Source: a virus
Virus record (IMG/VR): IMGVR_UViG_3300046170_000191
Span: 1-34,461 of that record
Reading direction: 5' to 3' (one strand)
DNA length: 34,461 nucleotides
The notes beneath the pieces were generated by a model, which did no database searches, was not told where the DNA came from, and saw nothing but the letters and a program-made list of their open reading frames with translations. Numbering within the stretch: the first letter of the stretch is position 1; each line of letters opens with the position of its first letter. The position numbers and the translations under genes were made by a program. Below, piece by piece: positions 8,215-30,533 of the stretch.

Positions 8215-8297
8215 AAAAGAAAAAACAATATAAACCTAAGAAAGAGAACATTATTAAATTAAGTAATTACTTAAAAAAGAGAGATGGCAAGAATTAG
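8202..8297 (+). CDS. Small basic protein
   Basis: 31 residues, Lys-rich (MGTVKKKKQYKPKKENIIKL), overlapping the connector end by 13 nt and the next small frame by 14 nt. The tight overlaps match the style of neighbouring genes, but short Lys-rich frames arise easily in AT-rich DNA. The palindrome at 8259 lies inside it. Confidence 0.4.
   Translation: MGTVKKKKQYKPKKENIIKLSNYLKKRDGKN
8259..8274. repeat. 16-base perfect palindrome TTAAGTAATTACTTAA (copy 2)
   Basis: Perfectly self-complementary. Shares 14 bases with the site at 3894-3907. It lies within the small frame 8202-8297. Confidence 0.45.
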
Positions 8298-8491
8298 TGA
8301 TTGGCAAGGGAGTAAATAATATTAGATTGGGGAAAAGTATACTGAGGTTTCTTGGTGGGGTAATGTTAACGAACCTAAACAGTTGGGGTATTATATATCC
8401 TTTTAATTCAGATGCCTCTTATTTTACGGTTGATACTAATTTAATAACATCAGATACAACACAATATACGGTTGATAAAACACAATTTTAA
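8284..8491 (+). pseudogene. Interrupted small structural-type gene (two in-frame stops and a +1 break)
   Basis: From ATG 8284 the frame reads MARISDWQGSK, then TAA, one codon, TAG, then continues open as IGEKYTEVSWWGNVNEP. From there the sensible protein moves to the +1 frame: NSWGIIYPFNSDASYFTVDT to TAA at 8489-8491. Removing one A after CCT (about 8372) joins the last two parts. Alone, the +1 frame is open from a GTG at 8297, but its first half looks like out-of-phase translation. The joined product would be about 69 residues. It sits between connector and tail-fibre genes. It may be a decayed gene, recoded, or contain sequence errors. Confidence 0.5.
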
Positions 8492-14434: not shown

Positions 14435-14458
14435 TTGTTTAATTTTTATTTATTTATT

Positions 14459-14743: not shown

Positions 14744-14754
14744 TGAATAAAATA

Positions 14755-14782: not shown

Positions 14783-14799
14783 ACTAAAACAAGATAAAG

Positions 14800-15120: not shown

Positions 15121-15180
15121 TATTAACTATGTTATATAGATAGTACTAAGTATATAAATAAATAATACTAAGTATAATAC
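15088..15180. repeat. Origin- or operator-like site 1: palindromic box plus ACTAAGT iterons
   Basis: 15088-15125 matches the reverse complement of 27060-27023 at 32 of 38 positions, including an unbroken TGGCAGATATATATA. Within it TGCCA-AAG-TGGCA is a perfect inverted repeat (15093-15105). Downstream are ACTATGT (15126) and ACTAAGT at 15145 and 15167, in very AT-rich DNA. The primase-helicase gene starts at 15185. This layout resembles an iteron origin or a repressor site. Confidence 0.6.
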
Positions 15181-15184
15181 AAAG

Positions 15185-16945: not shown

Positions 16946-17285
16946 AAGCAAACGTAGGAGATGGCTAACTATGAATAACTATCGAAATTGGCACTATCAA
17001 GTCAGTAACGATATTAAGCGTAAATTCAAAGCTCAGATAACACCTTTATTAGATTTTAGATTATCTGGAAAGGTTAAAATAGAATACTTTTATTTTGCCC
17101 CTGATAAAAGAACTAGGGATTTAATGAATGTAATTTCTGTTGTAGATAAGTTCTTTCAAGATGCTATGGTCGAAAACGATTGTATTGAATCAGATGACTT
17201 GTCAACTGTGGTGGAAGTAAATTCTTGTTATATGGGGATAGATAGGGAAAATCCTAGATTAGATGTAATAATAACTAAATTATAA
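16938..17285 (+). CDS. RusA-family Holliday junction resolvase
   Basis: 115 residues from ATG 16938, overlapping the helicase stop by 8 nt (longer in-frame starts lie inside the helicase). RusA signature: NNYRNWHYQVSNDIKR near the N-terminus, then FAPDKRTRDLMNVISVVDKFFQDAMVENDCI with acidic residues Asp61, Asp70 and Asp81 that should bind metal, and a closing SDDLSTVVEV. Resolves four-way junctions before packaging. Length is typical of the family. Confidence 0.82.
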   Translation: MNRSKRRRWLTMNNYRNWHYQVSNDIKRKFKAQITPLLDFRLSGKVKIEYFYFAPDKRTRDLMNVISVVDKFFQDAMVENDCIESDDLSTVVEVNSCYMGIDRENPRLDVIITKL

Positions 17286-17288
17286 ATT

Positions 17289-17453
17289 ATGTATATACAG
17301 TTTTTCCCAGTCTATGGGTTTATGGTAGGTTTCAATTATTGGAACACAAAATTAGATGAAATCCAAGACCCTGAAGAAACAGAAGTAGAACATCTATTTC
17401 AATTTATGGTGGGTATTATAGGAATATCAATCCACGTATGGCAGAGCAAGTAA
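17289..17453 (+). CDS. Small conserved membrane-associated protein
   Basis: 54 residues starting three bases after the RusA stop. Two hydrophobic stretches (FFPVYGFMVGFNYW and FMVGIIGISIHVW) flank an acidic loop (DEIQDPEETEVEH), so two membrane segments are possible. Comparable small proteins occur in replication modules of Bacteroidota phages. It overlaps the following sigma-like gene by 16 nt. Function unknown. Confidence 0.6.
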   Translation: MYIQFFPVYGFMVGFNYWNTKLDEIQDPEETEVEHLFQFMVGIIGISIHVWQSK

Positions 17454-17986
17454 TAAATATATTAGCTAAAAAGCACCAAGACTGGATTTATATGGCAAAG
17501 TCTTTTGGGGTTAGTGATGACGATGCTAATGAATTAGTACAGCAAATGTATATAAGGATATGTGATTATGTTAAGGATGTCAATAAAATTATGTATAATA
17601 AAGATGAGGTTAACACCTATTATGTTTATGTAACTTTGCGTAATCTATATCTATCTAAATTCCATAAGTTAGGTAATAAGTTTATCTATAGTGAGGACTT
17701 GCCAGTAGATATGATTGACTATCGTGCAGATGACTCTGGAGTAGAATATGAAAAGGAACAATTTGATAAAGTTATAGATAAAGTAGAATCTATAATTGAT
17801 GACTGGTATTGGTATGATAAGAGGGTTTTTAATATACATTTCTTTGACGAGATGTCAATGAGAAAGATAGCAAGGGAAACTAAAATAAGTTTAAGTTCAA
17901 TATTTAATACGCTAAGTAATGGCAAAAAGAAAATCAAGAAAGGTGCAATCAAAGAATACAAAAAGTACCGAGAATCAAAAGACTAA
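17438..17986 (+). CDS. Sigma-70-like / ECF-type transcription factor
   Basis: 182 residues with the layout of a small sigma factor. Region 2-like helices span about 8-70 (HQDWIYMAKSFGVSDDDANE, LVQQMYIRICDYVKD, VYVTLRNLYLSKFHKLG). A region 4-like helix-turn-helix spans about 130-175 (DKRVFNIHFFDEMSMRKIAR, then TKISLSSIFNTLSNGKKKIK). It could redirect host RNA polymerase to phage promoters, for example those carrying the TTTGKCAGTTGGAAAA motif, or act as a regulator only. The call is by pattern; region 2 conservation is loose. Confidence 0.65.
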   Translation: MAEQVINILAKKHQDWIYMAKSFGVSDDDANELVQQMYIRICDYVKDVNKIMYNKDEVNTYYVYVTLRNLYLSKFHKLGNKFIYSEDLPVDMIDYRADDSGVEYEKEQFDKVIDKVESIIDDWYWYDKRVFNIHFFDEMSMRKIARETKISLSSIFNTLSNGKKKIKKGAIKEYKKYRESKD

Positions 17987-18338
17987 ATCAATCGGAGTTG
18001 GAGATACTGTAGAAAAGTTATTTGAAGCTAGTGGTATTAGTAAGGTAGCGAAGTTTGTTCTTGGGGAGGACTGCGGTTGTTCTGATAGACGTGAGGTTTT
18101 AAATAAGATGTTTCCTTATCAAAAGCCTAATTGTTTATCTCAAGATGAATACAATTATCTTAAGGATTATTTCTCTACTAAAATAAATAAAGTTTCGGTT
18201 AAGAGACAAGAGGAACTTGTGGCTATATACAATAGAGTATTTAATGATAAGGCATCGACTACTGGCTGTACAAGTTGTTTCCTAAATAATGTCCACAAGA
18301 AATTAGAGAGGGTATATAAAGAATATAGAGATGAATAG
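17919..18338 (+). CDS. Conserved Cys-rich hypothetical protein
   Basis: 139 residues. It overlaps the sigma-like gene by 68 nt; no later ATG in frame would give a sensible start before conserved sequence, so the overlap seems real. After a basic start (MAKRKSRKVQSKNTK) comes GVGDTVEKLFEASGISKVAK, then GEDCGCSDRREVLNKMFPYQ with KPNCL, and a second Cys cluster TGCTSCF near the C-terminus. Six cysteines suggest metal binding. It resembles a family common in flavobacterial phages with no function known to me. Confidence 0.65.
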   Translation: MAKRKSRKVQSKNTKSTENQKTKSIGVGDTVEKLFEASGISKVAKFVLGEDCGCSDRREVLNKMFPYQKPNCLSQDEYNYLKDYFSTKINKVSVKRQEELVAIYNRVFNDKASTTGCTSCFLNNVHKKLERVYKEYRDE

Positions 18339-18726
18339 TTTAATTAGAAACACTAAACAAGTAAGGCAATCTATAGACTTTACTGGTGTTGAGAATAATA
18401 AAATTCACCCTACCGATATAGACTTTGTACTTGAATTCGATAATGATATACTAATTCTAGGGGAAGTAAAGAAAGAGGGTAATAAATTACCAATAGGACA
18501 AAGGCTTGTCTTGGAGCGTATGGTGGATAAATGGGGCAGTAAAGGTATTGCCTTAAAAGTAATTCATAACCACCTGGATGACAATACTGATATTCCTTTA
18601 TTAGATTGTTGTGTTGAGGCTTATTATATTGAGGGCAAATGGACAGTATTAAACACTCCTTATAGTTTGGTTGCTTTTGTAAATGGGCTTGGTAAAAAAT
18701 GGAATAATAATAAATGTAAATTTTAA
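18331..18726 (+). CDS. PD-(D/E)XK nuclease-like protein
   Basis: 131 residues, overlapping the previous gene by 8 nt. It contains HPTDIDFVLEFDNDILILGEVKKEG: an Asp in DIDFVLEF and E-x-K in GEVKK, the catalytic pattern of the PD-(D/E)XK fold. A following helix (IGQRLVLERMVDKWG) and strand complete the small core. It may nick or resolve phage DNA or degrade host DNA. The substrate cannot be inferred. Confidence 0.6.
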   Translation: MNSLIRNTKQVRQSIDFTGVENNKIHPTDIDFVLEFDNDILILGEVKKEGNKLPIGQRLVLERMVDKWGSKGIALKVIHNHLDDNTDIPLLDCCVEAYYIEGKWTVLNTPYSLVAFVNGLGKKWNNNKCKF

Positions 18727-18732
18727 ATTAAT

Positions 18733-18825
18733 ATGGTTGTTTTAAAAATTATACTTGGATATGGGATTTTAAGGATATTAGAAGCAATGATAGTAAAAAC
18801 ATATAGAGAAAGAAATGAGCGATAG
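18733..18825 (+). CDS. Small hydrophobic protein
   Basis: 30 residues: one hydrophobic helix (VLKIILGYGILRILEAMIV) with a basic tail (KTYRERNER). Overlaps the next gene start by 11 nt. Plausible small membrane peptide, but its size makes it uncertain. Confidence 0.4.
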   Translation: MVVLKIILGYGILRILEAMIVKTYRERNER

Positions 18826-19083
18826 TATAAAAAAATGGTTTGAAATGAACGAGGATAGATGGACTGCTGATTCAACTTATTCCCACAATGATATAAAAAA
18901 AGACCCAATAGTGGAAGATGTTATAAATACTATGAGGGCAAGAAGTAGAGATGGTATCTTGAAGTACGGAACTACCCTTCACGATTCTCCTGATGGATTC
19001 TATACTATAAGTTCTTAAATCATTTACAAGAGGAGCTCATGGATGCTACCTTGTATATAGAAAAACTGAAACAACAGAAATGA
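18815..19083 (+). CDS. MazG/NTP-pyrophosphohydrolase-like protein, frameshifted
   Basis: The first frame (MSDSIKKWFEMNEDRW ... SRDGILKYGTTLHDSPDGFY) ends at TAA 19016-19018. The rest of the expected protein, FLNHLQEELMDATLYIEKLK plus QQK and TGA at 19081-19083, is in a different frame (+2, equivalent to -1). Removing a duplicated TA around 19001-19005 would restore one 88-residue protein. The combined pattern 'KYGTTL ... HLQEELMDATLYIEKL' is a familiar phage family resembling the all-alpha MazG-type nucleotide pyrophosphohydrolases. The break may be real or a sequence error. Confidence 0.55.
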
Positions 19084-19119
19084 AAACAGTATTAGATGTT
19101 TGTTTTATAAAATAATTAT

Positions 19120-19269
19120 ATGAAAGAAGTAAAACTAATTAAGATGCAGAACGACCTAAAGCTAACACAAAAGGCATTAGCAGTCGCATTATATAAAATA
19201 GAAAAAATAGAAAAACAATTAAAACCAAAAGAAGATGCCACTATTAAAACCAAAGAAGTACGAAACTAA
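19120..19269 (+). CDS. Small charged hypothetical protein
   Basis: 49 residues, Lys/Glu-rich and helical (LIKMQNDLKLTQKALAVALY, KIEKIEKQLKPKED), likely a short coiled coil. Overlaps the next gene by 35 nt. No family recognised. Confidence 0.5.
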   Translation: MKEVKLIKMQNDLKLTQKALAVALYKIEKIEKQLKPKEDATIKTKEVRN

Positions 19270-19390
19270 TAAGGAATTTGTTAAAAGATGTATGGGGAAC
19301 GCCAAAATGGGAGTCGAATATACTGATAGAGACCAACGATTTGCAGTTTGTCAAACTATATGGAAGGATAATTTTACTCCTAAAAAATAG
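19235..19390 (+). CDS. Small conserved protein with RCM ... AVC motif
   Basis: 51 residues: FVKRCMGNAKMGVEYTDRDQ followed by RFAVCQTIWKDNF. The spacing Cys-Met ... Asp-Gln-Arg-x-Ala-Val-Cys ... Trp is a short motif found free-standing or at the ends of phage head proteins in many Bacteroidota phages. Function unknown; two cysteines conserved. Confidence 0.6.
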   Translation: MPLLKPKKYETNKEFVKRCMGNAKMGVEYTDRDQRFAVCQTIWKDNFTPKK

Positions 19391-19433
19391 GATTTGTTAA
19401 AAACTTGTTTATCTTTACACAAAAGATACAACA

Positions 19434-19646
19434 ATGAAGATTTTAAAGATAATATTTAATACCCCCCAATTATTTACCATATTCTTCTTATTTGCGATAT
19501 TGTTCTTAATTGAAATTATAGTTATTATTTTAGTTTTTCCATTTAATAGTTTATTGTGGGGGATTGAATGGGCTATACGAAGAATGTTAAATTTTATTAA
19601 TACAAACGAATATGGGAACGAAGTAAAGAATTATTACAAAAATTAA
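19434..19646 (+). CDS. Small membrane protein
   Basis: 70 residues. A long hydrophobic stretch covers residues 12-40 (LFTIFFLFAILFLIEIIVII), possibly two tight membrane helices, followed by an amphipathic Trp/Arg segment (WGIEWAIRRML) and a polar tail. Starts 43 nt after the previous gene. No family recognised. Confidence 0.55.
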   Translation: MKILKIIFNTPQLFTIFFLFAILFLIEIIVIILVFPFNSLLWGIEWAIRRMLNFINTNEYGNEVKNYYKN

Positions 19647-19774
19647 ATCATGAGGATTCTGCTGTAGAATTCTATAGTAGATTAGAACTTTTAAGGGAAA
19701 TGCAAGAGGAGCTTATTGACCCTAAGGTGCCTGAGAGTGTGAAGCGTATAATCCTTAAAACAGTATTGGTGTGA
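19612..19774 (+). pseudogene. Small helical protein broken by a +1 shift at its fourth codon
   Basis: ATG 19612 reads M-G-T-K then TAA. Skipping the T of that stop gives an open frame, KELLQKLNHEDSAVEF followed by YSRLELLREMQEELIDPKVP, to TGA at 19772-19774, which overlaps the exonuclease start as TGATG. The +1 part has no ATG, GTG or TTG before residue Met at about 19701, so it has no start of its own for the full length. Looks like a real gene of about 53 residues with one extra base, or a recoded gene. Confidence 0.45.
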
Positions 19775-20559
19775 TGGGAGATGTAATAACAACATTAGAT
19801 GGTGTATTCTGGGACAAACAAGACATACTTAACCAGATGCATAGCGATGAATTTTATTTTGGGTATTTAGGTAAGAACGCTTTATCAAGTTCATCTTGTA
19901 AGGAATTGCTAAAGAACCCAAGTATTTATTATAATACTATAAATAACAAAGGGGAAGGTAAAAAGAACGATGCCTTTACCGCTGGTTCTTTATTCCATTA
20001 TAAGGTTTTAGAGCCTAAAAAATGGGATTCATTGCACTTTGTAGATGTACAGAGTAAGAATTCAAAGGCTTATAAGTTAGCTGTAGAAGAACATGGGGAG
20101 GCTTACACTTCAACAGAGAAGTATAATGCTGAACAGATGGCATCTAGTTTTATGAGTAATTCAAAAGCATATCAGTATTTGAAAGGTGCTAGGACAGAAG
20201 TTCCTGCTATTGGAACAATAGAGGGTATTCCCTTTAGGGCTAAAGCAGATATTTTAGGAGGCAAGTATATTGCCGATTTAAAAAGTACTGGTCAGATAAA
20301 AAAATTCCGTTGGGCTGCTAATGATTTCGGATATGATATTCAATGTTTTATTTACTGTGAATTATTTGGCATCTCTTATAAAGACTTTGTTTTTATAGCA
20401 GTTGATAAATCAACTCATTTGGTTGGTATATTTGAATGTAGTAAGGAATTTTACCATAGAGGTGAAGAAAAAACAATGGAAGCTGTCCAGATATATAAAG
20501 ATTTCTTTGTTGATAAAAAGAAGTCGGTAGAAGAATTTTATTTGTATGACGTACTCTAG
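19774..20559 (+). CDS. PD-(D/E)XK exonuclease, DUF3799 / RecE-like
   Basis: 261 residues from ATG 19774 (a GTG three bases earlier is less likely). Matches the phage exonuclease VIII-like family: LSSSSCKELLKNPSIYY near the N-terminus, GSLFHYKVLE with His75, TEVPAIG with Glu142, FRAKADIL with Asp159, YIADLKSTG with Asp168 and Lys170, and YDIQCFIYCELFG with Gln190 and Tyr194. It should resect double-stranded ends to give 3' overhangs for the ERF annealer, so the two form a Red-like pair despite lying 5.3 kb apart. Confidence 0.82.
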   Translation: MGDVITTLDGVFWDKQDILNQMHSDEFYFGYLGKNALSSSSCKELLKNPSIYYNTINNKGEGKKNDAFTAGSLFHYKVLEPKKWDSLHFVDVQSKNSKAYKLAVEEHGEAYTSTEKYNAEQMASSFMSNSKAYQYLKGARTEVPAIGTIEGIPFRAKADILGGKYIADLKSTGQIKKFRWAANDFGYDIQCFIYCELFGISYKDFVFIAVDKSTHLVGIFECSKEFYHRGEEKTMEAVQIYKDFFVDKKKSVEEFYLYDVL

Positions 20560-20728
20560 TAAACAGGAGTGTTACAATGATGTTCTAGCATCTTTAAGAT
20601 TAGGAATCTTAGATAAAGAAGAAATAGAATTATTGATAGATTACTATAGAGATATGGAGTATTATGAATGTTGTCAAGGTATTTTAGATGCCTATGATAG
20701 TTTTAAAAAAGAAATGATAATAAGATAA
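20546..20728 (+). CDS. Small helical hypothetical protein
   Basis: 60 residues, overlapping the exonuclease end by 14 nt. Acidic and helical (LGILDKEEIELLIDYYRDME, YYECCQGILDAYDSFKKEMI). No motif recognised. Two bases separate it from the DnaA-like gene. Confidence 0.6.
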   Translation: MTYSSKQECYNDVLASLRLGILDKEEIELLIDYYRDMEYYECCQGILDAYDSFKKEMIIR

Positions 20729-20730
20729 TA

Positions 20731-21270
20731 ATGATAGATAAAATAGAAAAGGTTAAAAAAATTAAGAAGATAGCAAGTGACGTAGTGTGTGAATTTTATG
20801 GAATAGATATTCATAAAAACAGTAGACGTAGGGATTACGTTATGGGAAGGGCTATGTATTATAAGATACTAAGAGATAATACTAGAATGAGTTTAGAGAC
20901 TATAGCCGATACATTTGGCAAGCACCATGCTACTGCTATCCACTCAATCAAGCAATTACAAGGGTTTATGAGTTATGACTATAGCCTAAATGCTGATTAT
21001 TTAGAGATAAACAATCAATTTGTAAATTTATTAGATAAGTCTCTATTGACACTTATTAGTGAGTCTAGTAGTGCTGAAGTAACTACTCCTAAGTATTTAA
21101 GACTACTAGATAAATATAACCACCTAAAAGAAAGCTATAATAACTTAAAAAAAGCTCATAACCAAATTATAGTTTCAACTTCAGAGGTCAATAAAAAGTA
21201 CAAAAAAATTAAAGTTAGATTTGAACAAAGGGAAGATTATTATAATAGAAATGGATATATATTAGAATAA
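20731..21270 (+). CDS. DnaA domain IV-like DNA-binding protein
   Basis: 179 residues. Residues 30-80 match the DNA-binding domain IV of DnaA: RRRDYVMGRAMYYKILRDNT, then MSLETIADTFGKHHATAIHS and IKQL, where GKHHATAIHSIKQL replaces the classic DHTTVLHA signature. No AAA+ domain is present. The C-terminal 60 residues are a coiled coil (YNHLKESYNNLKKAHNQIIV). It could recognise repeats in the phage genome, such as the boxes at 15.1 and 27.0 kb, to start replication, or regulate transcription. It sits just before the terminase genes. Confidence 0.72.
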   Translation: MIDKIEKVKKIKKIASDVVCEFYGIDIHKNSRRRDYVMGRAMYYKILRDNTRMSLETIADTFGKHHATAIHSIKQLQGFMSYDYSLNADYLEINNQFVNLLDKSLLTLISESSSAEVTTPKYLRLLDKYNHLKESYNNLKKAHNQIIVSTSEVNKKYKKIKVRFEQREDYYNRNGYILE

Positions 21271-21273
21271 ATT

Positions 21274-21639
21274 ATGGAAGAGAAAGATAAACCAAAGAAA
21301 GTAGATGGCAGGAGAAATAATGGTGCTTTAAAGGGAGTATCTAGGGGACAAGGGAGACCCCCTAAGATTAAAGAGAAAGAGACAAATGCTTTAACGCTCA
21401 AAGCACTAAAGAAGGCGTTTGGTAGTGAGGAAAAGGCTTGGATTCATATTGCCAACAAAGCCTCTGAAGGGAACTTCAACTACACTAAAATGTTGTGGGA
21501 ATACCGCTATGGTAAACCAAAGGAGCAACAGGATATAAATGTAAATACTAATGTGAATATCCCAGTTGTGGATTTCGCTAAACCTAAAACAATAGATATT
21601 GACCATGAAGAAATCAAAAAGACAAATGAGAATAAATGA
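21274..21639 (+). CDS. Putative terminase small subunit
   Basis: 121 residues, three bases after the previous gene. Begins with a Lys/Gly-rich stretch (VDGRRNNGALKGVSRGQGRP) typical of a phage family with the GRPPK motif, then a helical core (LKALKKAFGSEEKAWIHIAN, FNYTKMLWEYRYGKPKEQQD). 'YGKP' near the end of the helical part is common in small terminases of Bacteroidota phages. It lies 0.7 kb before the large subunit, separated by a nuclease and small genes. Confidence 0.65.
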   Translation: MEEKDKPKKVDGRRNNGALKGVSRGQGRPPKIKEKETNALTLKALKKAFGSEEKAWIHIANKASEGNFNYTKMLWEYRYGKPKEQQDINVNTNVNIPVVDFAKPKTIDIDHEEIKKTNENK

Positions 21640-21739
21640 TAGCAGTAAGTTTCCAGATGATTTCTGGAACTATTATGTTAATCCTATATTGGGTTATCAT
21701 TACTCAAGTGATTTAAGTAAAAAACATGAAAGACAGTAA
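21626..21739 (+). CDS. Small hypothetical protein
   Basis: 37 residues: FPDDFWNYYVNPILGYHYSS is aromatic-rich and looks like real protein. Overlaps the small terminase end by 14 nt and the next gene start by 14 nt. Function unknown. Confidence 0.5.
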   Translation: MRINDSSKFPDDFWNYYVNPILGYHYSSDLSKKHERQ

Positions 21740-22119
21740 CTATATAGGATGTTATGGGGAAACCTTGTTTTTTGCAGAGTGTATTAAACGAGGTTTCTCT
21801 GTTAGTAAACCTTTACTAGATTCAAGCCCTTATGATTGTATAGTTGATACCCATAGTAAATTATATAAAGTTCAGATTAAGTCAACAGGAAAATCTCCTA
21901 GGTGAAGGTGAATCAAATATAAAAACTCCCCTTCAGAATAATAAAGCAGATTACTCGTTAGGTTTAGTAGATTATTTTGCAGTTTACTCTACTTATTACA
22001 ATGGGTTCTTTATATTTAAGAATGAGGGAAATATGCAAGCTATTAGGTTTAGTCTTAGTGGCAAATGGAAAGATTGTTTTAACAATTATAAATTCGATAC
22101 AGATGAGCAGAAAGGGTAA
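21726..22119 (+). CDS. PD-(D/E)XK Holliday-junction-resolvase-like protein, frameshifted
   Basis: The first frame (21726-21905, MKDSNYIGCYGETLFFAECI ... PYDCIVD ... YKVQIKSTGKSP) stops at TGA 21903-21905. The continuation (GEGESNIKTPLQNNKADYSL ... VDYFAVYSTYYNGFFIFK) is in the +1 frame and ends at 22119. Motifs: Glu in CYGETLF, Asp in PYDCIVD, and Q-x-K in VQIKST, matching archaeal-type Hjc/phage endonuclease folds. Dropping one base near 21900 gives a single protein of about 130 residues. A nuclease so close to the terminase may trim junctions before packaging. Confidence 0.6.
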
Positions 22120-22219
22120 ACTATCAAGAATAGCTAGAAGGAGAAAATGGAGAGGCAATTCAAAGGAAGAGCTAAAAAGAAATAAGAAAATAGAAGATAT
22201 ATATAACAGTAAAAGATAA
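22103..22219 (+). CDS. Small basic protein
   Basis: 38 residues, strongly basic (MSRKGKLSRIARRRKWRGNS followed by KEELKRNKKIED). Overlaps the resolvase end by 17 nt and the next ATG by one base (TAATG). Possibly nucleic-acid binding; unknown. Confidence 0.5.
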   Translation: MSRKGKLSRIARRRKWRGNSKEELKRNKKIEDIYNSKR

Positions 22220-22335
22220 TGGAAGTAGAAAAAGAAGGAGTATTATTCCACCACCTAATACAAGGAGACTATCTACCTTGTTATAGTCCAGAATATTTAA
22301 CTGAGAATGATTTATGGCATTGTGATAATAAGTGA
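22219..22335 (+). CDS. Small acidic hypothetical protein
   Basis: 38 residues (MEVEKEGVLFHHLIQGDYLP ... CYSPEYLTENDLWHCDNK). It ends just before the terminase, its TGA overlapping a GTG (GTGA). No family recognised. Confidence 0.5.
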   Translation: MEVEKEGVLFHHLIQGDYLPCYSPEYLTENDLWHCDNK

Positions 22336-22364
22336 GAAAATATTCAGAAAAATCTGAAATCAAT

Positions 22365-23585
22365 ATGGCAAACAAAATAGATTTAAATCCTAAGTACCAA
22401 ACGCTATTCAATAGTGATAGTAGATACTTTGTAATTACAGGAGGTAGAGGTTCCGGTAAATCATTTGCCGTAAACACCTTCTTAGTACTTCTAACATACG
22501 AACAGAATACAAAGACACTTTTTACTCGTTATACAATGAGTAGTGCCTCTATGAGTATTATACCTGAGTTCATGGAGAAGATAGAACTGATGGGGGTAGC
22601 TGAATTCTTTACTATTACAAAGACTGAGATTACCAATAAGCTAACCAATAGTTCCATATACTTTAGTGGGATTAAAACTGCAAGTGGAGACCAGACTGCA
22701 AAGCTGAAGTCAATTCAAGGGGTTAATACTTTTGTACTTGATGAGGCTGAAGAATTAAATGATGAGACTGGCTTTGACAAGATTGACTACTCCATTAGAA
22801 GTAAGGTTGCCAAAAATAGATGTATATTGATTCTAAACCCCTACTACAAAAGAACATTGGATATACCAAAGATTCTTCCAAAATAGAGGAATACCAGATG
22901 GATTTAACGGCACTAAAGAAGGGGTAACCTTATATCCACACAACCTACTTAGACAACGTTGACCACCTGTCTAAATCATTCGTTAACGAGATTGAAAAGA
23001 TTAAGGAACGTCGCCCAGAGAAGTACGCCCATCAAATTATGGGGGGTTGGCTACAAAAAGCAGAGGGAGTAGTATTTACTGATTGGCAAATAGGACAATT
23101 CAATACCGAGATAGATTCAATATTCGCACTTGACTTCGGATTTGCTCGAGATGCTTCAGCCCTGGTTGAAATTTGCGTTGACAAAGAAAGGAAAATAATT
23201 TGGTTAAAGGAACATCTTTATAAGAAAGGACTAGTAACCTCCCAGATATACGAGCATTGCCGTAGAGTAGCAGGTAGAAAGCTAATTGTGTGTGATAACT
23301 CGTGAGCCACGCCTTTTATCCGAAATGAAGATGAAGAACCCACCTTTAAACGTCACTCCGACTATAAAGAAGAAAGGAAGTATATTAAGTGGGATTGCTT
23401 TGATGCAGGACTACAATATCAACTTAGATGGGGAGAACTTAGTAAAAGAGTTCAATAACTATGTTTGGGATATTAGGGGGGTAAAGCCAGTCGACAACTA
23501 CAACCACCTTATCGATGCTAGTAGGTACGGAATTCAATATATATTGACTAGGAGTGTGCCTAAAGGAATGTATATTGTCAAGTAA
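22365..23585 (+). CDS. Terminase large subunit, interrupted by three +1 frame breaks
   Basis: ATG 22365 (a GTG at 22332 is also possible). Segment 1 carries Walker A GGRGSGKS (26-33) and Walker B FVLDEAEEL, ending with NPYYK. Segment 2, +1 frame from about 22855, reads HWIYQRFFQNRGIPDGFNG. Segment 3, +1 again from about 22931, reads YIHTTYLDNVDHLSKSF, KYAHQIMGGWLQKAEGVVF, the nuclease residue in FALDFGFARDAS, and VCDNS before TGA at 23302. Segment 4, +1 again, reads EPRLLSEMKMKNPP to DNYNHLIDASRYG. Joined, about 405 residues: a normal PBSX/Terminase_3 packaging ATPase-nuclease with all key motifs retained. As written, no single frame encodes it. Confidence 0.8.
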
Positions 23586-23604
23586 AATATTTTTATTATA
23601 TTGC
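23574..23604 (+). promoter_or_regulatory. Degenerate promoter-like copy at the terminase end
   Basis: ATTGTCAAGTAAAATATT then a TATATTG element at 23597-23603. It aligns with the promoter at 23699 (TTTGGCAGTTGGAATATT ... TATATTGC). If active it would start a short transcript of about 80 nt ending at the terminator at 23690. Confidence 0.3.
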
Positions 23605-23657
23605 AATAGATAATAAACCTTTTAAGTAAGGATGTTTTGTTTTTAGTTAATTTGTCT

Positions 23658-23690
23658 AGGGGGATTTAGAAATATTTCCCTCTTTTTTTT
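23658..23690 (+). terminator. Intrinsic terminator after terminase
   Basis: AGGGGGA pairs with TCCCTCT (7 bp, one G-U) with a 12-nt loop, then a run of T. The 170-nt gap 23586-23755 holds this terminator and the two promoter-like sites; no gene seen. Confidence 0.75.
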
Positions 23691-23698
23691 ATAATATG

Positions 23699-23729
23699 TT
23701 TGGCAGTTGGAATATTTTTTATATATTGC
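23699..23729 (+). promoter_or_regulatory. Promoter of the small early gene block
   Basis: TTTGGCAGTTGGAATA starts at 23699, followed after 19 nt by TATATTGC at 23722-23729, parallel to the ERF promoter. A perfect TAnnTTTG (TATGTTTG, 23695-23702) overlaps its first bases, so either could be the -7 element. Confidence 0.5.
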
Positions 23730-23755
23730 AGTATAATTTTAAAAAAGAGATAATT

Positions 23756-23932
23756 ATGAGAACAACGAAAAACAGTTTACGAATGAGGGAAATGGGCTTC
23801 AAGAATGGCTTAGAAGTATTGGCAAATGGAAACAATATTCATTCAGATAGCGACATCTGTCAGGTATTATTTACTGATTTTCCTGATGTAGCAAATAAGA
23901 TTACAGAATATTTAGACGAAATAAGCGAGTAA
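23756..23932 (+). CDS. Small hypothetical early protein
   Basis: 58 residues from ATG 23756; the longer frame from 23696 runs back through the promoter. Basic start (MRTTKNSLRMREMGFKNGLE) and an acidic end (FPDVANKITEYLDEISE). No family recognised. First gene after the terminase terminator, and spaced two bases from the next. Confidence 0.6.
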   Translation: MRTTKNSLRMREMGFKNGLEVLANGNNIHSDSDICQVLFTDFPDVANKITEYLDEISE

Positions 23933-23934
23933 TT

Positions 23935-24189
23935 ATGACAATTAAAAGCAAAGAAAACAGAGAATTAGATTTAGCAAGTCCAGAATTAAATATTACTGAG
24001 GCTGAGATTGCAACAGTTGGTTATGAATTCTATAAGTTTTTTATGACGTTCAAAGATGAGCTTTATAAAAACCACGAAAGGGATTTACAAGACCCAGCAA
24101 ATAAGTTTCATGACTTTATGGAGTTCCCAGTATATTGCTTTGGGGCATTTACAACATCTTATTTAGAGCATAAAGAAAAAGATATATAA
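23935..24189 (+). CDS. Hypothetical early protein
   Basis: 84 residues, mostly helical: LNITEAEIATVGYEFYKFFM, TFKDELYKNHERDLQDPANK, FPVYCFGAFTTSYLEHKEKD. No recognisable motif. Two bases between it and each neighbour indicate a single operon. Confidence 0.6.
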   Translation: MTIKSKENRELDLASPELNITEAEIATVGYEFYKFFMTFKDELYKNHERDLQDPANKFHDFMEFPVYCFGAFTTSYLEHKEKDI

Positions 24190-24191
24190 TT

Positions 24192-24386
24192 ATGATACGA
24201 AAAACTAGAACTGAGAAAACAGCCCCTGTTAGGCTTACAAATGAAGAAATAGACTTAATAATCCACCTCCTTTGGAATCAGCGATTAGAATACACTAGAT
24301 TAGAGAACTGGTCGCTAGTGGATGAGATGACAGAAACCATCGAGAAGTTTGATGAATTAGATGCCGAAGATTGTGAGCAAATTTAA
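24192..24386 (+). CDS. Hypothetical helical protein
   Basis: 64 residues: basic N-terminus then two acidic helices (LTNEEIDLIIHLLWNQRLEY, LVDEMTETIEKFDELDAEDC). The last 14 nt overlap a GTG-initiated gene. Confidence 0.6.
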   Translation: MIRKTRTEKTAPVRLTNEEIDLIIHLLWNQRLEYTRLENWSLVDEMTETIEKFDELDAEDCEQI

Positions 24387-24537
24387 TATTAAACTAGATA
24401 GTGACGAACTCCATATAGTGGAGACTGTATTAGCTCAAACTATTGGCAAAAGAAAAGCCTATAAGCTAAGTACAGCGGAGTACACCAAGCTACTCCTAAA
24501 TATAGACAAACAAATATTAAAACAACTAGAAAAATGA
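24373..24537 (+). CDS. Small hypothetical protein with GTG start
   Basis: 54 residues starting at GTG 24373, overlapping upstream by 14 nt and ending on the next ATG (ATGA). Sequence SKFNIKLDSDELHIVETVLA and AEYTKLLLNIDKQILKQLEK looks like a real helical protein. No in-frame ATG precedes it. Confidence 0.5.
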   Translation: MSKFNIKLDSDELHIVETVLAQTIGKRKAYKLSTAEYTKLLLNIDKQILKQLEK

Positions 24538-24764
24538 GAATAAGAGTACAAGACAAGAAGGGAAATGATTTGTGTACATTTAATGTAGGTGGTTTTCTTG
24601 GGGACAGAAAAGCGGGAGGAAACCATTTTAGGCTATCAGGATTTAAACGCTGTTCATTATCTGAAATACAAAAAGACCACATAGGCACTTTTGCATTTAT
24701 ACAAATAGAACAAGATTTTACTAACCAATTAAAACAACTGGAAGATGGAACAAGTAGTGAGTAA
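24534..24764 (+). CDS. Hypothetical protein
   Basis: 76 residues (MRIRVQDKKGNDLCTFNVGG then FLGDRKAGGNHFRLSGFKRC). Beta-rich first half, helical C-terminus. Overlaps the next small zinc-ribbon gene by 20 nt. No family recognised. Confidence 0.6.
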   Translation: MRIRVQDKKGNDLCTFNVGGFLGDRKAGGNHFRLSGFKRCSLSEIQKDHIGTFAFIQIEQDFTNQLKQLEDGTSSE

Positions 24765-24849
24765 TTGTTGCAACGCACCTTTATTGCCAATCGAAACAGA
24801 TTTCTGTTCAAACTGCTACGAGCATTGTGATGCAATACAATTAACCTAG
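24745..24849 (+). CDS. Tiny zinc-ribbon protein
   Basis: 34 residues with NCCNAP, then CSNC, then EHC: five cysteines and one His in a treble-clef-like spacing (CC-x11-C-x2-C). Such mini zinc ribbons are frequent in phages. Overlaps the upstream gene; its stop is followed at once by four AATTCAATA repeats. Confidence 0.55.
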   Translation: MEQVVSNCCNAPLLPIETDFCSNCYEHCDAIQLT

Positions 24850-24915
24850 CAATTCAATAGGGTTGTGAATTCAATACCCAAATGTGAATTCAATAGGTAT
24901 AAATTCAATAGGGGG
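24849..24915 (+). repeat. Four clustered AATTCAATA repeats
   Basis: AATTCAATAGG at 24851, GTGAATTCAATACCC from 24865, GTGAATTCAATAGGT from 24884, and AATTCAATAGGGGG at 24902. Spacing is 15-21 bases. The last copy runs into the terminator stem. The 234-nt gap 24850-25083 holds these, the terminator and a promoter; no gene seen. Confidence 0.7.
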
Positions 24916-24938
24916 TCAGAAATGGTCTCCTTTTTTTT
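24911..24938 (+). terminator. Intrinsic terminator with GAAA tetraloop
   Basis: GGGGGTCA pairs with TGGTCTCC (8 bp with G-U pairs) closing a GAAA tetraloop, followed by eight T. Confidence 0.8.
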
Positions 24939-25028
24939 GTTCCTTATTCTTATTTAGACTAGATATAAATTAACATTTTATCAACAAATTAATTAAAAAA
25001 GTGTAGGATTAATCGATTTTTTATTCCG

Positions 25029-25048
25029 TATATTTGTCAGGTGGAAAA
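25029..25048 (+). promoter_or_regulatory. Promoter/operator-like site before 25084 gene
   Basis: TATATTTG (-7 consensus) at 25029-25036 merges into TTTGTCAGGTGGAAAA at 25033-25048, a copy of the recurrent motif. The gene starts 36 nt later. Confidence 0.5.
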
Positions 25049-25083
25049 TCCACAAAGACAAATACTAACTAATAATTAAAGAC

Positions 25084-25311
25084 ATGGAAGAAACAAAGAT
25101 TTATCTAATTTTAAACGAGGTCGCTCTTCAATTTGTATCAAGAAATAGAGAACCTTTAAAATTTGAAAATTACGAAGATGCCAACAAATACGCTTCTTCA
25201 AATTGCCATCTTTGGAAAATTATCGAGGTTTGGTTTAAGGACAAATACATTTTTCACTTGCCAAATGTAAAAAGCGAAGATTTAAACGAATGGGGGAATT
25301 TATCAATTTAA
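25084..25311 (+). CDS. Hypothetical early protein
   Basis: 75 residues (MEETKIYLILNEVALQFVSR ... CHLWKIIEVWFKDKYIFHLP). Alternating beta-strand pattern; no motif recognised. First gene of a sub-block (25084-26295) in which C is at least as frequent as G on the coding strand, unlike the rest of the genome. Confidence 0.6.
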   Translation: MEETKIYLILNEVALQFVSRNREPLKFENYEDANKYASSNCHLWKIIEVWFKDKYIFHLPNVKSEDLNEWGNLSI

Positions 25312-25321
25312 CACTAAACAA

Positions 25322-25468
25322 ATGAGAAAACGATTTTTAGCCTTTTTAAGCAACCCAGGTAGACAACTGGACATTTACGACCTATTAACCCTTTTTGGCT
25401 GTTCACTAGCCTTATTTGTAGGGGTCATTTTATTATTCACATTAAACAATTTTATCAACTTAATTTAA
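25322..25468 (+). CDS. Small membrane protein
   Basis: 48 residues: a basic N-terminus (MRKRFLAFLSNPGR), then one membrane segment (TLFGCSLALFVGVILLFTL) and a short polar end. No family recognised. Confidence 0.55.
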   Translation: MRKRFLAFLSNPGRQLDIYDLLTLFGCSLALFVGVILLFTLNNFINLI

Positions 25469-25473
25469 CAACT

Positions 25474-25776
25474 ATGAAAACAAAAGTATATCAATTAGAA
25501 AGTCCAAGAAGTGGGAACGCTGTTCCTAATCAGTACGAAATCAGAACACGAACCAGCAAAGGAACAAAAGTTATGTTTCAATCTTATAATACTATAATTT
25601 GCGAAGTAAACGAAGGAGGAAATATTTACCTCGATTCTAATAGCTGGGATTATTCCAGGACAACCTTAAAATATTTGAAGCTGTTTTTATCAGATTTCAT
25701 TGGCACAATAAACACTGACCAAATAAGAAAGGCAATAACTCAAAAGAGATTTAAACTCAAAAACCTTAACAAATAA
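25474..25776 (+). CDS. Conserved phage protein (DUF8033-like)
   Basis: 100 residues. LESPRSGNAVPNQYEIRT, then FQSYNTIICEVNEGGNIYLD and SWDYSRTTLKYLKLFL form a pattern seen in many phage-encoded small proteins ('SPRSGNxVxNQF ... FQSYxSxIA ... WDYSRTT'), which I tentatively equate with DUF8033. Function unknown. It lies in the early block of small genes. Confidence 0.6.
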   Translation: MKTKVYQLESPRSGNAVPNQYEIRTRTSKGTKVMFQSYNTIICEVNEGGNIYLDSNSWDYSRTTLKYLKLFLSDFIGTINTDQIRKAITQKRFKLKNLNK

Positions 25777-25780
25777 AATC

Positions 25781-25954
25781 ATGAACCTTTACACATTGAC
25801 AAAACTTATTCAAGAGCTGGAGCAAATAAAAAATCCAACCTCCTACGATTTGAAAGTATTAAAATACTACAAAGAGAAAAAGAGCGAATTAATAAACAGA
25901 ATAAACGAGCAAATCAAATCATTTGAATTTGGCAATAAATCCTTTAAACTATGA
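25781..25954 (+). CDS. Small coiled-coil hypothetical protein
   Basis: 57 residues, helical and Lys/Glu-rich (LTKLIQELEQIKNPTSYDLK, YYKEKKSELINRINEQIKSF). Its stop overlaps the next ATG (ATGA). Confidence 0.55.
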   Translation: MNLYTLTKLIQELEQIKNPTSYDLKVLKYYKEKKSELINRINEQIKSFEFGNKSFKL

Positions 25955-26295
25955 GCAACTCAAAACAATTTAACCATAATTTACAAAAGGCAAAACGACA
26001 ACAACAAGCCGATAGAGAAATAATAGAAAACAAAAACTTATCTATTGACAATATAGAAGCAAGAGAGAACTATATTACAATGAGTCGCCCCTCATTTGAG
26101 GCAACCATCATGGGTAGAAAGTATGAAATATCAGCCACAGCTTATGGGGACACAATAGAAGATATACAAATAATTTCATCAGATACTTTTGAGCAAATAT
26201 ATTTTGAAGATGAGGAACTCAACAAAGAAATTGAGGAAGAGCTTTGTTTTATATTAAATAATCAAGACCGCTATAATATTTTAGGCGTTGTATAA
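25951..26295 (+). CDS. Hypothetical early protein
   Basis: 114 residues. Polar, Gln/Asn-rich N-terminus (KQFNHNLQKAKRQQQADREI), then a beta-strand region (FEATIMGRKYEISATAYGDT) and an acidic C-terminus (FEDEELNKEIEEELCFILNN). No family recognised. Last gene before a strong terminator and a 413-nt gap. Confidence 0.6.
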   Translation: MSNSKQFNHNLQKAKRQQQADREIIENKNLSIDNIEARENYITMSRPSFEATIMGRKYEISATAYGDTIEDIQIISSDTFEQIYFEDEELNKEIEEELCFILNNQDRYNILGVV

Positions 26296-26318
26296 ATAGA
26301 AATAAATTAAACATTTAG

Positions 26319-26340
26319 CCCCCTTTTTGGGGGTTTTTTT
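26319..26340 (+). terminator. Strong intrinsic terminator
   Basis: CCCCC-TTTTT-GGGGG followed by seven T; ends the 25084-26295 operon. Confidence 0.85.
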
Positions 26341-26659
26341 ATGGGGTAATTTTAGCTAACTACCTGGAAATCATTTAAAATATAATTAAAAAGGGTAGTT
26401 CGTCTTTAAAATATCAATTCATTTGACCAAATAACCTAATAAATTCAATCCAATAGGTAAATAAGCCTTTCTAAGGGCTTCAAACCACCTCAGCTATACC
26501 AATACACCAAAAAGATATAAAACCCGCTTAAAACGTCTCTAAATAGCCTTAAATAGCTTCTCAGTGTATTGTAGGTAGACCGAAATAAAAAAATATAAGG
26601 TACTCTAGGGAAATAAAATAGGGTATTGAGTAAGTAACCTACTCTCTACATAAACCATC
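26341..26659. other. Gene-free segment with reversed base skew
   Basis: No frame with a start codon of useful length on either strand. Counting 26401-26580 gives about 20 G and 40 C on the + strand, whereas coding strands elsewhere favour G. Contains a hairpin (AAGCCT / GGGCTT, 26463-26480), a variant AATTCAATCCAATAGG (26442-26457) and a GAGTA / TACTC inverted repeat (26628-26644). It ends at a reversed copy of the TGGCAGTTGGAAAA motif. It may be a minus-strand non-coding transcript or an origin-related segment. Confidence 0.4.
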
Positions 26660-26704
26660 TTTTCCAACTGCCATTGTAGATTCAATAGGTATTTTGTATA
26701 TTTG
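26660..26704 (+). promoter_or_regulatory. Composite promoter before 26709 gene
   Basis: In order: reversed TGGCAGTTGGAAAA motif (26660-26673), a -33-like ATTG (26673-26676), AGATTCAATAGG inside the 20-nt spacer (26679-26690), and -7 TATATTTG (26697-26704). The ATG follows four bases later and is itself within another AATTCAATAGG copy (26712-26722). Confidence 0.65.
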
Positions 26705-26708
26705 CAAT

Positions 26709-26939
26709 ATGAATTCAATAGGTATATTTAGCAGCTTCCAGTATGATGCGTTTCAATGGTGTGTGGAGAATGGAATTAAGGTTTATTGTTTGCCTAACAA
26801 AAAAGGTGATAAACTATTTGAGATAGAAATAAACAATAACGGAGAAATTATTCATAGTGGCAAAAAATATAAGAAAGACCAAGTAGATAATAAAATTTGG
26901 GAACTGTATTGCCATTACTATACTAAGTATAATATATAA
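26709..26939 (+). CDS. Hypothetical early protein, leaderless start
   Basis: 76 residues from ATG 26709; an in-frame TTG at 26694 lies inside the -7 element and is unlikely. First residues MNSIGIF are encoded by the AATTCAATAGG repeat. Body: FQYDAFQWCVENGIKVYCLP then a beta-rich IEINNNGEIIHSGKKYKKDQ. No family recognised. Its last codons (YTKYNI) overlap the first ACTAAGT iteron of site 2. Being monocistronic with a composite promoter, it may be a regulator. Confidence 0.6.
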   Translation: MNSIGIFSSFQYDAFQWCVENGIKVYCLPNKKGDKLFEIEINNNGEIIHSGKKYKKDQVDNKIWELYCHYYTKYNI

Positions 26940-27060
26940 CTAAGTATTATTATTTATATTTATATAGAACTAAGTGTAATACACTATGTATATAGTAAAG
27001 TACAAGTACTATACTAAGTTTATTATACTATGTATATATATCTGCCATTAAGGCACGTGG
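26920..27060. repeat. Origin- or operator-like site 2: iterons plus inverted box
   Basis: ACTAAGT at 26922, 26939, 26969 and 27013; ACTATGT at 26983 and 27027, all on the + strand. The box at 27023-27060 is the reverse complement of that at 15088-15125 (32/38 identical). AT-rich throughout, no gene; the tail module starts at 27101. Confidence 0.6.
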
Positions 27061-27100
27061 AATCTATAAGTACAAAAAACTAAAAGTAAATTATTTCAAT

Positions 27101-27805
27101 ATGGGTAAAAGAATAGAAATAGAAGTGCCAACATCTCTTGAGGATATTACTCTTGGGCAATATCAACACTATCTAAAAATACTAGACCAGAACGAAGGTG
27201 AAGATGCTAATGATTTTATAAATAAAAAGCTAGTAGAAATATTCTGTAATATAAAATTAAATGAAGTTGACTCTATCCCTCTTGTGGATTTTAATCGCAT
27301 TTTGGAAGTACTTGAAGAAGCGTTCAAGGAGAAATTTTCTTTAATACGTCATTTTGAATTAGGAGAAGTAGAAATGGGGTTTATACCTAAGTTAGACGAT
27401 ATGAGTTTAGGGGAGTATGTAGATGTTGAAGCATCTATTACTGATTGGCAAAATATCCATAAAGCGATGGGAGTGCTATATCGCCCAGTAAATTTTAAGA
27501 GTAAAGATAAGTATACTATTGCTCCTTATAAGCCAAATGATGATATGCAAGAGTGGATGAAACAAATGCCTCTTAGTGCTGTTATGAGTTGTATGGTTTT
27601 TTTTTACGATTTAGGGACAGAGTTATCGATAGCTTCCCTAGCTTATTTGGAGATGGAGATGAAGAGGGACAAGACCTCTCGGCTCAAGGAGGCTTTGGAA
27701 GAAAGTGGGGTTGGTATCAGTCAATTTATGGACTCGCTAAAGGAGACATCACAAAGTTTGACGAAGTTACAGAAGAACCAATATTTAAGTGTCTCACTTA
27801 CCTAA
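27101..27805 (+). CDS. Tail assembly chaperone-like protein (zero-frame product)
   Basis: 234 residues. N-terminal IEVPTSLEDITLGQYQHYLK then acidic helical sequence (EVLEEAFKEKFSLIRHFELG, MSLGEYVDVEASITDWQNIH), a pattern I know from Bacteroidota phage tail genes. First gene of the tail module, beginning 40 nt after repeat site 2. Up to about residue 168 the protein is convincing. After the T9 run at 27597-27605 a -1 frame carries conserved-looking sequence, as in the G/GT arrangement of siphoviral chaperones. The zero-frame end (SLTKLQKNQYLSVSLT) may be the short form's tail. Confidence 0.6.
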   Translation: MGKRIEIEVPTSLEDITLGQYQHYLKILDQNEGEDANDFINKKLVEIFCNIKLNEVDSIPLVDFNRILEVLEEAFKEKFSLIRHFELGEVEMGFIPKLDDMSLGEYVDVEASITDWQNIHKAMGVLYRPVNFKSKDKYTIAPYKPNDDMQEWMKQMPLSAVMSCMVFFYDLGTELSIASLAYLEMEMKRDKTSRLKEALEESGVGISQFMDSLKETSQSLTKLQKNQYLSVSLT

Positions 27806-27867
27806 CATTTGAAAAAGAGAAAAACGAATTAGAAACTAGAATGATACAAAAATCAATGAAGCGATGA
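27604..27867 (+). CDS. -1 frame extension of the chaperone-like gene (candidate programmed frameshift)
   Basis: Open in the -1 frame relative to 27101. The slippery heptamer T TTT TTT (27598-27604, part of nine T) is in the correct phase. From 27604 the frame encodes 87 residues, including GGFGRKWGWYQSIYGLAKGD, ITKFDEVTEEPIFKCLTYLT and FEKEKNELE, which look like real conserved protein, unlike the zero frame there. Its TGA (27865-27867) overlaps the next ATG (ATGA), matching the coupling style of the operon. The fusion would be 255 residues. A miscounted T run is the alternative explanation. Confidence 0.6.
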   Translation, partial: LRFRDRVIDSFPSLFGDGDEEGQDLSAQGGFGRKWGWYQSIYGLAKGDITKFDEVTEEPIFKCLTYLTFEKEKNELETRMIQKSMKR

Positions 27868-28352
27868 AAGAATATTATGACTTGGTAGATAATATCTATA
27901 ATTATCTTATTGGCAATCCAAACATTAATACGGTAACTAAAGGAGATTTATTAGAAGTAGATTTATCTAAGCAATCTATATTCCCACTTGCCCATATAAT
28001 AGTAAATGAGGTAACATTCAATGATTACTATATTACATTCTCTATTAACGTAATTGCTATGGATGTTGTTGATGAGGATAAAGATGATAAGCAAAATAAA
28101 GACAAACCTCATTTAGGGTTAGATAATAAAGAAGATATACTAAATACCATGTTGACAGTTGTGAATGGTATTCAATCTAGTCTGCGAAGGGGCGGTATGA
28201 ATGAAAACAACTACGAAATCAACGATTCTCCAACTGCCACTCAGTTTGAAGATAGATTTGAGAATTTGCTGGCAGGATGGTCATTGTTGCTAAACATTGA
28301 AATCCCCAACAATCAGATGGGACTAATTAATGATGATGGTAGTCAATGCTAA
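27864..28352 (+). CDS. Tail completion / terminator-like protein
   Basis: 162 residues. YYDLVDNIYNYLIGNPNINT, then VTKGDLLEVDLSKQSIFPLA and HIIVNEVTF, then a C-terminal LLAGWSLLLNIEIPNNQ. This alpha-beta layout and the phrase 'NTVTxGDxxxVDLxKQxIFPLxHI' are typical of a Bacteroidota phage protein upstream of HK97 gp10-like genes, as tail terminators are. Overlaps neighbours by 4 and 7 nt. Confidence 0.6.
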   Translation: MKEYYDLVDNIYNYLIGNPNINTVTKGDLLEVDLSKQSIFPLAHIIVNEVTFNDYYITFSINVIAMDVVDEDKDDKQNKDKPHLGLDNKEDILNTMLTVVNGIQSSLRRGGMNENNYEINDSPTATQFEDRFENLLAGWSLLLNIEIPNNQMGLINDDGSQC

Positions 28353-28909
28353 ATAAGTTCAAAAATACAAAGTCATATTTAGGTAATTATTCTAAAGAGC
28401 TTGTAAAACTACTAAAGATAGAAATTGGTAGAAATAGAACTAGAACTTACAGAAGCGGTTCTTATAGCTCACCTATAGACAATACAGGAAAACTGAAGGA
28501 GTCTATAGAATCTATTGCAAAAGAAACAAGTAAGGGGTTTTCTTTCAATATAATGTCTAATGATTATGGATTAGCAGTAGATGGTGGCTCAAGTAGAAAG
28601 CAACCTGCTGTAGATGAATTAATAGATTGGATTAGGAGTAAACCTATAAGGATAAGAGATAGCAAAGGTAGGTTTGCAACAGCAACCGATTATAGAGTTA
28701 GAGGTCTTGCTTATGCAATAGCTAAAAAAATAGGTCGTGATGGAATCCAACCTACAGGATTTATACAAGATGCTATAAACCAGTCAATGGATAAACTAAA
28801 CAAGCTAGGAGCTGCTGTGGGTAAAGATGTATCATTAAACCTAGATGACATTTTAGTTAAAGCAGGTTATATTAAAAAGGGTGATAATTATATTATAGAA
28901 AAACAATGA
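28346..28909 (+). CDS. HK97 gp10-like head-tail joining / tail component
   Basis: 187 residues. DNTGKLKESIESIAKETSKG, then AVDGGSSRKQPAVDELIDWI and GLAYAIAKKIGRDGIQPTGF-IQDAI. The sequence from NTGKL...SI through the AIAKKIxRxGIxPTxFIxDAI motif is characteristic of gp10-family minor tail/joining proteins. Basic and helical. Overlaps the next gene as ATGA. Confidence 0.7.
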   Translation: MLNKFKNTKSYLGNYSKELVKLLKIEIGRNRTRTYRSGSYSSPIDNTGKLKESIESIAKETSKGFSFNIMSNDYGLAVDGGSSRKQPAVDELIDWIRSKPIRIRDSKGRFATATDYRVRGLAYAIAKKIGRDGIQPTGFIQDAINQSMDKLNKLGAAVGKDVSLNLDDILVKAGYIKKGDNYIIEKQ

Positions 28910-30531
28910 GTGATGTTAGAATAAACACCAGGAGTCCTTATTATGTTGAGGCAAATCCTACCCCACCAGAAACACCTGAAACCCCAGTGGTTGACCCACC
29001 TACGAATATAGCACCTACGGTTACTATTACAGCAACCAATACAACTCCGTATGTTGGAGATACTGTCACGCTTACTGCGGTAGCTTCAGATAGCGATGGG
29101 ACTATAGTAAGTTATTTATGGGGGGGAACACCATCACCAGAGACAACCACTTCAATAGATGTGGTAAGTACTACTGTTCAGTCTAAAGTATATAATGTTA
29201 TTGTTACAGATGACGATGGAGATGTTGGACTTGCTCAAATAGTTATTAATTGGCAAGAAGTCCCACAACAAATTACAAATACAGGTAGAGACGTTAATTG
29301 TGGGGAAGTAGTAAATGAAGCCTCATTTTTAGGAACTAAGACTTATAATTTAGTAGGTGTTGGAGATAAAATAGGAGATGTAGAGATTGAGTTTTTAGAT
29401 AATGGTAATAATCGAAATGTACCAATTTTATTTGATATAAGTTGGAATAATACAACTGTTACTACTGGGTATATAGGATTATCTAATTTCTCTGGAACAA
29501 TTCCTTCAAATGATAATACAGGAGACCCTACAACAAAATCAGAACCCACAACGCTAACAATAAGTAAAACTGCTGCTAGTCCAACAGAAGTTGTATTAAC
29601 AGCTTCAACTATTACCTCAGAGGGTAATGATAGTTATTCATTTAGACTTAATTGCCCAGATGTAGAAGCTACACAAACGTTTTTCTATACACTTAGAGGT
29701 ACTTGTACTAATGGGGACACTACCTTTAATTACTTAGATGTAAATGGAGTTGAACAAACTGAAGTACTTTCTAACGGACAAACTAGATTAATTTCTGCAC
29801 AAGAAGATACTGTATCTCTTGCTATATGTACTGGTACTACTGATAAAGGTGGTGAAAGTTTTGATTTAGGGAAACCTGACCAAGAATTTAATGATAATAT
29901 AGAAATTAATATAGTGTTTGATGATTCTGGCTCTATGGACACCACATTACAGCCTTTATTAGATATGGCTGATGGTATTCTTAAAAGCAGATTATTATCT
30001 TTTTATGGGGGAGATACTGTTAAATATAACGAACAGGTTAAAGTACTTAAAGCATCTGAATTTAATAATTTATACACTCAAGTTGCTGGGTTTCCTTCTC
30101 CAACAAGAGAGAGATTCTTAAATTTCGCTTCTTACGGTAAAACAAACCCTGAGTCAACAAAAAATATCTATTTATTTTTTACTGATGAAGTAACTGGCTC
30201 ATATAAAAATTTGGGCGTTCAAAGTCCAATTTACGATTCGGATTTGGCTTTATATAGGTCTTACTTAGATTCAGTAGAATATGGAGAGCATTTTATGAGA
30301 ACGTTTATAATTTACAGAAATGTTGAAGGGGACAATGAATTTATTCAAGCGATATTTAATGGGGGAACACATAATAATGAGGATTTTTCTGGTTATAACG
30401 GTTTATCTGATAGGGCTGAAGCCTCTAAGGAAGAAGAGATATTACAAGGTGGTGTAAGTTATTCTACAAATCCTAATTATTATTATGATTTTATTATTCG
30501 AGCCTTGCAAGATTACGGATTTAATATATAG
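28906..30531 (+). CDS. Tail protein with PKD domain and von Willebrand A domain
   Basis: 541 residues. Pro-rich start (PTPPETPETPVVDPPTN), then a PKD/Ig-like domain about 36-117 (VTLTAVASDSDGTIVSYLWG ... VYNVIVTDDDGDVG). A middle beta-rich part (130-320) includes several Cys. A vWA-type domain follows from about 332: INIVFDDSGSMDTTLQPLLD, with MIDAS D-x-S-x-S at 339-343, and IYLFFTDEVTG supplying a later Thr/Asp. Such domains bind proteins or matrix through a metal ion. Among tail genes it is probably a virion surface or baseplate component that could contact the host. No membrane segment is present. Confidence 0.75.
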   Translation: MSDVRINTRSPYYVEANPTPPETPETPVVDPPTNIAPTVTITATNTTPYVGDTVTLTAVASDSDGTIVSYLWGGTPSPETTTSIDVVSTTVQSKVYNVIVTDDDGDVGLAQIVINWQEVPQQITNTGRDVNCGEVVNEASFLGTKTYNLVGVGDKIGDVEIEFLDNGNNRNVPILFDISWNNTTVTTGYIGLSNFSGTIPSNDNTGDPTTKSEPTTLTISKTAASPTEVVLTASTITSEGNDSYSFRLNCPDVEATQTFFYTLRGTCTNGDTTFNYLDVNGVEQTEVLSNGQTRLISAQEDTVSLAICTGTTDKGGESFDLGKPDQEFNDNIEINIVFDDSGSMDTTLQPLLDMADGILKSRLLSFYGGDTVKYNEQVKVLKASEFNNLYTQVAGFPSPTRERFLNFASYGKTNPESTKNIYLFFTDEVTGSYKNLGVQSPIYDSDLALYRSYLDSVEYGEHFMRTFIIYRNVEGDNEFIQAIFNGGTHNNEDFSGYNGLSDRAEASKEEEILQGGVSYSTNPNYYYDFIIRALQDYGFNI

Positions 30532-30533
30532 TT

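Follow-up and report, generated by a model that had tools for sequence, protein, structure and literature searches.

Among cultured phages, Nonlabens phages P12024L and P12024S, whose hosts are marine Flavobacteriia, are the nearest relatives by terminase of the phage described here (47% identity over a 122-aa middle segment). The terminase of P12024L (Inhavirus), a member of the PBSX/Terminase_3 family, is homologous to ours; the genome, at 35.7 kb, is similar in size, and the terminase likewise lies after a run of small genes, but in P12024L it is annotated as a single uninterrupted CDS. The frameshifts described in Quimbyvirus concern reverse transcriptase, not terminase (PMC8008677). In long-read virome assemblies, 474 indels per 100 kb were counted before short-read polishing and 22.8 after it, and frameshifted gene calls result (PMC6487183).

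The DNA analyzed here, which we refer to as the window, is the IMG/VR virus record IMGVR_UViG_3300046170_000191 (34,461 bases), with the gene content of a tailed phage. It is a contig of a marine flavobacterial phage and distant kin of Nonlabens phage P12024L. The large structural genes (portal, capsid, tape measure and tail) are all open. The two ends of the window (1 and 34461) adjoin inside the tape-measure gene, as the end and start pieces map side by side in three relatives (L157, L158 and L236); therefore, the record probably represents the complete genome in circularly permuted form, although no overlap between the ends was detected. Among the tail genes lies a 541-aa protein (28906-30531), in which the middle DDSGSM stretch resembles, by eye only, a von Willebrand factor A domain.

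According to the sequence-only reading of this DNA, the large terminase (22365-23585) is spread over four reading-frame segments, with every step being +1. Three-frame translation and tblastn searches with the terminase of an intact relative confirmed this arrangement, in which the four segments occupy three frames (Table 1). Residues 159-191 of the intact protein match the second frame at about 22840-22941, residues up to 312 match the third frame at about 22937-23302, and residues 313-405 match the first frame at 23304-23582; the same search revealed no second terminase in the window. The steps near 22929 and 23302 agree with the positions read earlier, while the first, near 22842, is located slightly upstream of the 22854 originally given. 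Of the motifs said to be preserved, both Walker motifs, A as GGRGSGKS and B as TFVLDEAEE, and the DNYNHLIDASRYG at the C-terminus were confirmed. In Pfam comparisons, the ATPase domain carrying both Walker motifs fits Terminase_3 in segment 1 (Table 1) and in the full protein of the sibling (E 1.4e-35), and the RNase H-like nuclease domain (Terminase_3C) is recognized in segment 3 (E 5.9e-06) and in the sibling (3.9e-11 over 256-389). The segments also match PHROG large-terminase families.

Table 1 Features of the window that are divided or altered by single-base or short length differences
Feature	Position	Strand	Basis and remarks
Terminase large subunit, segment 1: residues 1-159, ATPase domain with both Walker motifs	22365..22841	+	tblastn 100% to L004; Pfam Terminase_3 E 1.1e-20
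Terminase segment 2, +1 relative to segment 1	22842..22928	+	Lies between the first two sites at which the window is one base longer than all relatives
Terminase segment 3, a further +1 (end of ATPase domain, start of nuclease domain)	22929..23302	+	Translation, profile match, alignments, tblastn
Terminase segment 4, in the same frame as segment 1 (remainder of nuclease domain, DNYNHLIDASRYG, stop)	23303..23585	+	Translation, profile match, alignments, tblastn
PD-(D/E)XK endonuclease-like gene (PDDEXK_5)	21726..22119	+	130 aa in L143; split into 59 + 91 aa in the window, length difference near 21902
Small membrane-protein-like ORF	19434..19646	+	End altered by length difference near 19616
Small gene	18815..19018	+	87 aa in L143; a length difference of five bases near 19000 truncates it
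ORF	8297..8491	+	67 aa in L154; four length differences, together with several substitutions, scramble it in the window

An important question is whether other phages share this arrangement, a comparison that the sequence-only reading had itself proposed. Relatives were gathered from viral contigs by searching with two terminase segments in turn, and each search returned 80 loci. All 101 distinct relatives spanning the terminase gene carry it in a single continuous frame, and not one of them shares any of the three shifts. The frame is continuous even in L004 (99.7% identity over a test stretch of 1,551 bases) and L003 (99.4%). At the terminase, few substitutions separate the window from L003 and from the record IMGVR_UViG_3300047453_000350, represented by loci L004 and L143; in either comparison, there are exactly three length differences, at each of which the window has one base more. 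Intact copies of this terminase are present in public data.

Length differences of this kind were also found in other parts of the window. Near-identical alignments were obtained with L143 (window positions 14417-30565, ~ 99.8%), L154 (3864-8790, 99.5%) and L283 (1007-8642, 98.9%). Over these ~ 24 kb, in comparison with siblings of at least 98.9% identity, the window has extra bases at about ten places, in five genes, and is nowhere shorter. This corresponds to ~ 42 insertion events per 100 kb, as compared with the 22.8 indels per 100 kb cited above for assemblies after polishing, and none of the roughly ten events is common to the siblings. Substitutions relative to the sibling are few (~ 25 in 16 kb). 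The insertion events comprise three in the terminase, one in the PD-(D/E)XK endonuclease-like gene, one near 19616, one of five bases near 19000 and four at 8308-8382. This count leaves aside the edges of a structural difference of ~ 400 bp near 19078-19107 as well as L298 (97.9% over 11896-13295), in which the differences run in both directions at the alignment edge. The 53-aa ORF that comes next in L143 after the membrane-protein-like ORF is not among the ORFs listed for the window, and the ORF at 8297..8491 looks like a blend of two variants. Since extra bases occur in at least four other genes too, a terminase-specific mechanism is excluded.

Larger differences from the siblings were observed at two places. 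At window positions 19078-19107, the corresponding stretch of L143 (4687-5091) is ~ 400 bp longer and includes most of a 155-aa methyltransferase-like gene that is absent from the window and matches Pfam N6_N4_Mtase only weakly, short of the curated cut-off; at the junction, the window has a short patch that resembles either edge of this stretch. The region 8297-9062 is variable relative to L154:4421-6093: the near-identical L154 diverges within the 186-aa gene at 8502-9062 and is followed by a 285-aa ORF rich in glycine, in a place that is occupied by different tail-region ORFs in the window. This divergence may represent an exchange of tail genes.

Judging from the alignments, the four-frame appearance very probably reflects a sequence or consensus error of one contig, and the terminase would be an ordinary, intact Terminase_3-type gene in the phage population. 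The length differences extend beyond one gene and are absent from near-identical sequences. The sequence context of the insertion sites is informative as to the kind of error. In agreement with the earlier claim that the sites avoid long homopolymers, the terminase sites lie in runs of no more than two bases in the sibling alignment, and none of the 83 longer runs of the window (A/T of at least 6, G/C of at least 5) shows a length difference in the near-identical stretches; on these grounds, an error of the homopolymer type was rejected. In the window, each of the three terminase sites holds the base of the sibling next to the one that replaces it in close relatives, which suggests that the consensus merged the reads of variants occurring together. 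A random single-base insertion gives side-by-side alleles 14.5% of the time (whole gene, relatives of at least 85% identity), so that the chance of three in three is ~ 0.003, a figure to be read as that of a test conceived post hoc, after the alignment had been seen. The test loses force and significance with more distant relatives, for which the proportion rises to 49% and 62% per insertion, the latter with 142 loci at 70% identity or more. A test with exact k-mers, which looked for the two alleles at every site, detected the two one-base-shorter forms at the first terminase site only and is blind at the second and third sites because flanking substitutions block exact matches; the allele count was therefore taken from the alignment-based test. 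Outside the terminase, the window combines L143-like and L152-like alleles near 19616-19628 and L154-like and L181-like alleles at 8308-8397, and such mixing is not clearly present at 21902.

The reads behind the consensus would thus have come from several co-occurring phages that differ slightly from one another, and where these vary, the consensus may have kept the alternative bases of two variants in succession instead of choosing one. Sequence error was among the options listed at the outset and is the best supported of them, but the argument then raised against it, that the steps all go one way and lie outside homopolymers, fails, because it considered homopolymer errors only, and the same pattern arises from a consensus error that adds bases, never removing any, at polymorphic positions. 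Within the consensus-error explanation, there is a lesser, though appreciable, chance that plain insertion errors of single reads survived polishing without any merging of alleles. The insertion-only bias of the window agrees with this version, as does the fact that PacBio subreads are insertion-enriched and polished assemblies retain some indels (PMC6487183), but all three terminase extras fall at positions of matching variation in close relatives, against a random expectation of 14.5% each.

Could the window instead represent a real genotype with a dead terminase, that is, a defective phage or prophage remnant with genuine single-base insertions? We consider this improbable. The reading frame is indeed broken, and the missing ~ 400-bp stretch with the methyltransferase-like gene of L143 looks like real structural variation. 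However, five genes carry insertions only, with no deletions and few substitutions, whereas true decay is not expected to add nothing but single bases, and to add them at variable positions. The large structural genes remain open, and there is no sign of decay in the terminase itself, because the protein of segments 1 and 4 is 100% identical to that of the sibling L004.

Repeated programmed +1 recoding, by which the four segments would be built into one full-length terminase, is extremely improbable, and this option of the sequence-only reading can be considered effectively refuted. The uniform +1 direction of the steps, the preserved motifs and a stop codon at the third shift site are what such recoding would display, but a frameshift that is missing from every relative, including a 99.7% identical contig that needs none, is not a programmed one: no out-of-frame arrangement is conserved among the 101 relatives. 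Moreover, the three sites share no shift motif or stimulating element, their codons and contexts being different, and unrelated genes are broken by the same kind of extra base. The window contains no tRNA gene and no Rfam match, so that a suppressor or special tRNA and a known structured RNA were likewise rejected; an intron or intein was rejected as well, since each difference amounts to one base with no inserted segment. That a real phage genotype with the three extra bases makes a working terminase through three +1 shifts unneeded by its relatives is scarcely conceivable.

Thus, the four-frame terminase does exist in the record but almost certainly not in a phage, and it is almost certainly not a new way of reading genes. 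Its relevance is one of caution only: phage contigs assembled from mixed populations can carry errors that break reading frames through insertions alone, at variable positions that are not homopolymers. Such errors resemble recoding or the decay of a gene and can keep markers, for example, the terminase, from being found by automated searches, and comparison with near-identical contigs resolves such cases fast.

In comparison with known systems, the indel errors of long-read viromes (PMC6487183) are similar in that they shift frames, shorten gene calls and still number tens per 100 kb after polishing; the indels of the window differ in being insertions only and in avoiding homopolymers. For the frameshifted reverse transcriptase of Quimbyvirus (PMC8008677), activity is backed by target-repeat variation, whereas the terminase of the window has in-frame, near-identical relatives instead. 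The closest of these, IMGVR_UViG_3300047453_000350, is about 99.8% identical over 16 kb and belongs to the same phage population, but it possesses an additional methyltransferase-like gene and a continuous 405-aa terminase without the extra bases.
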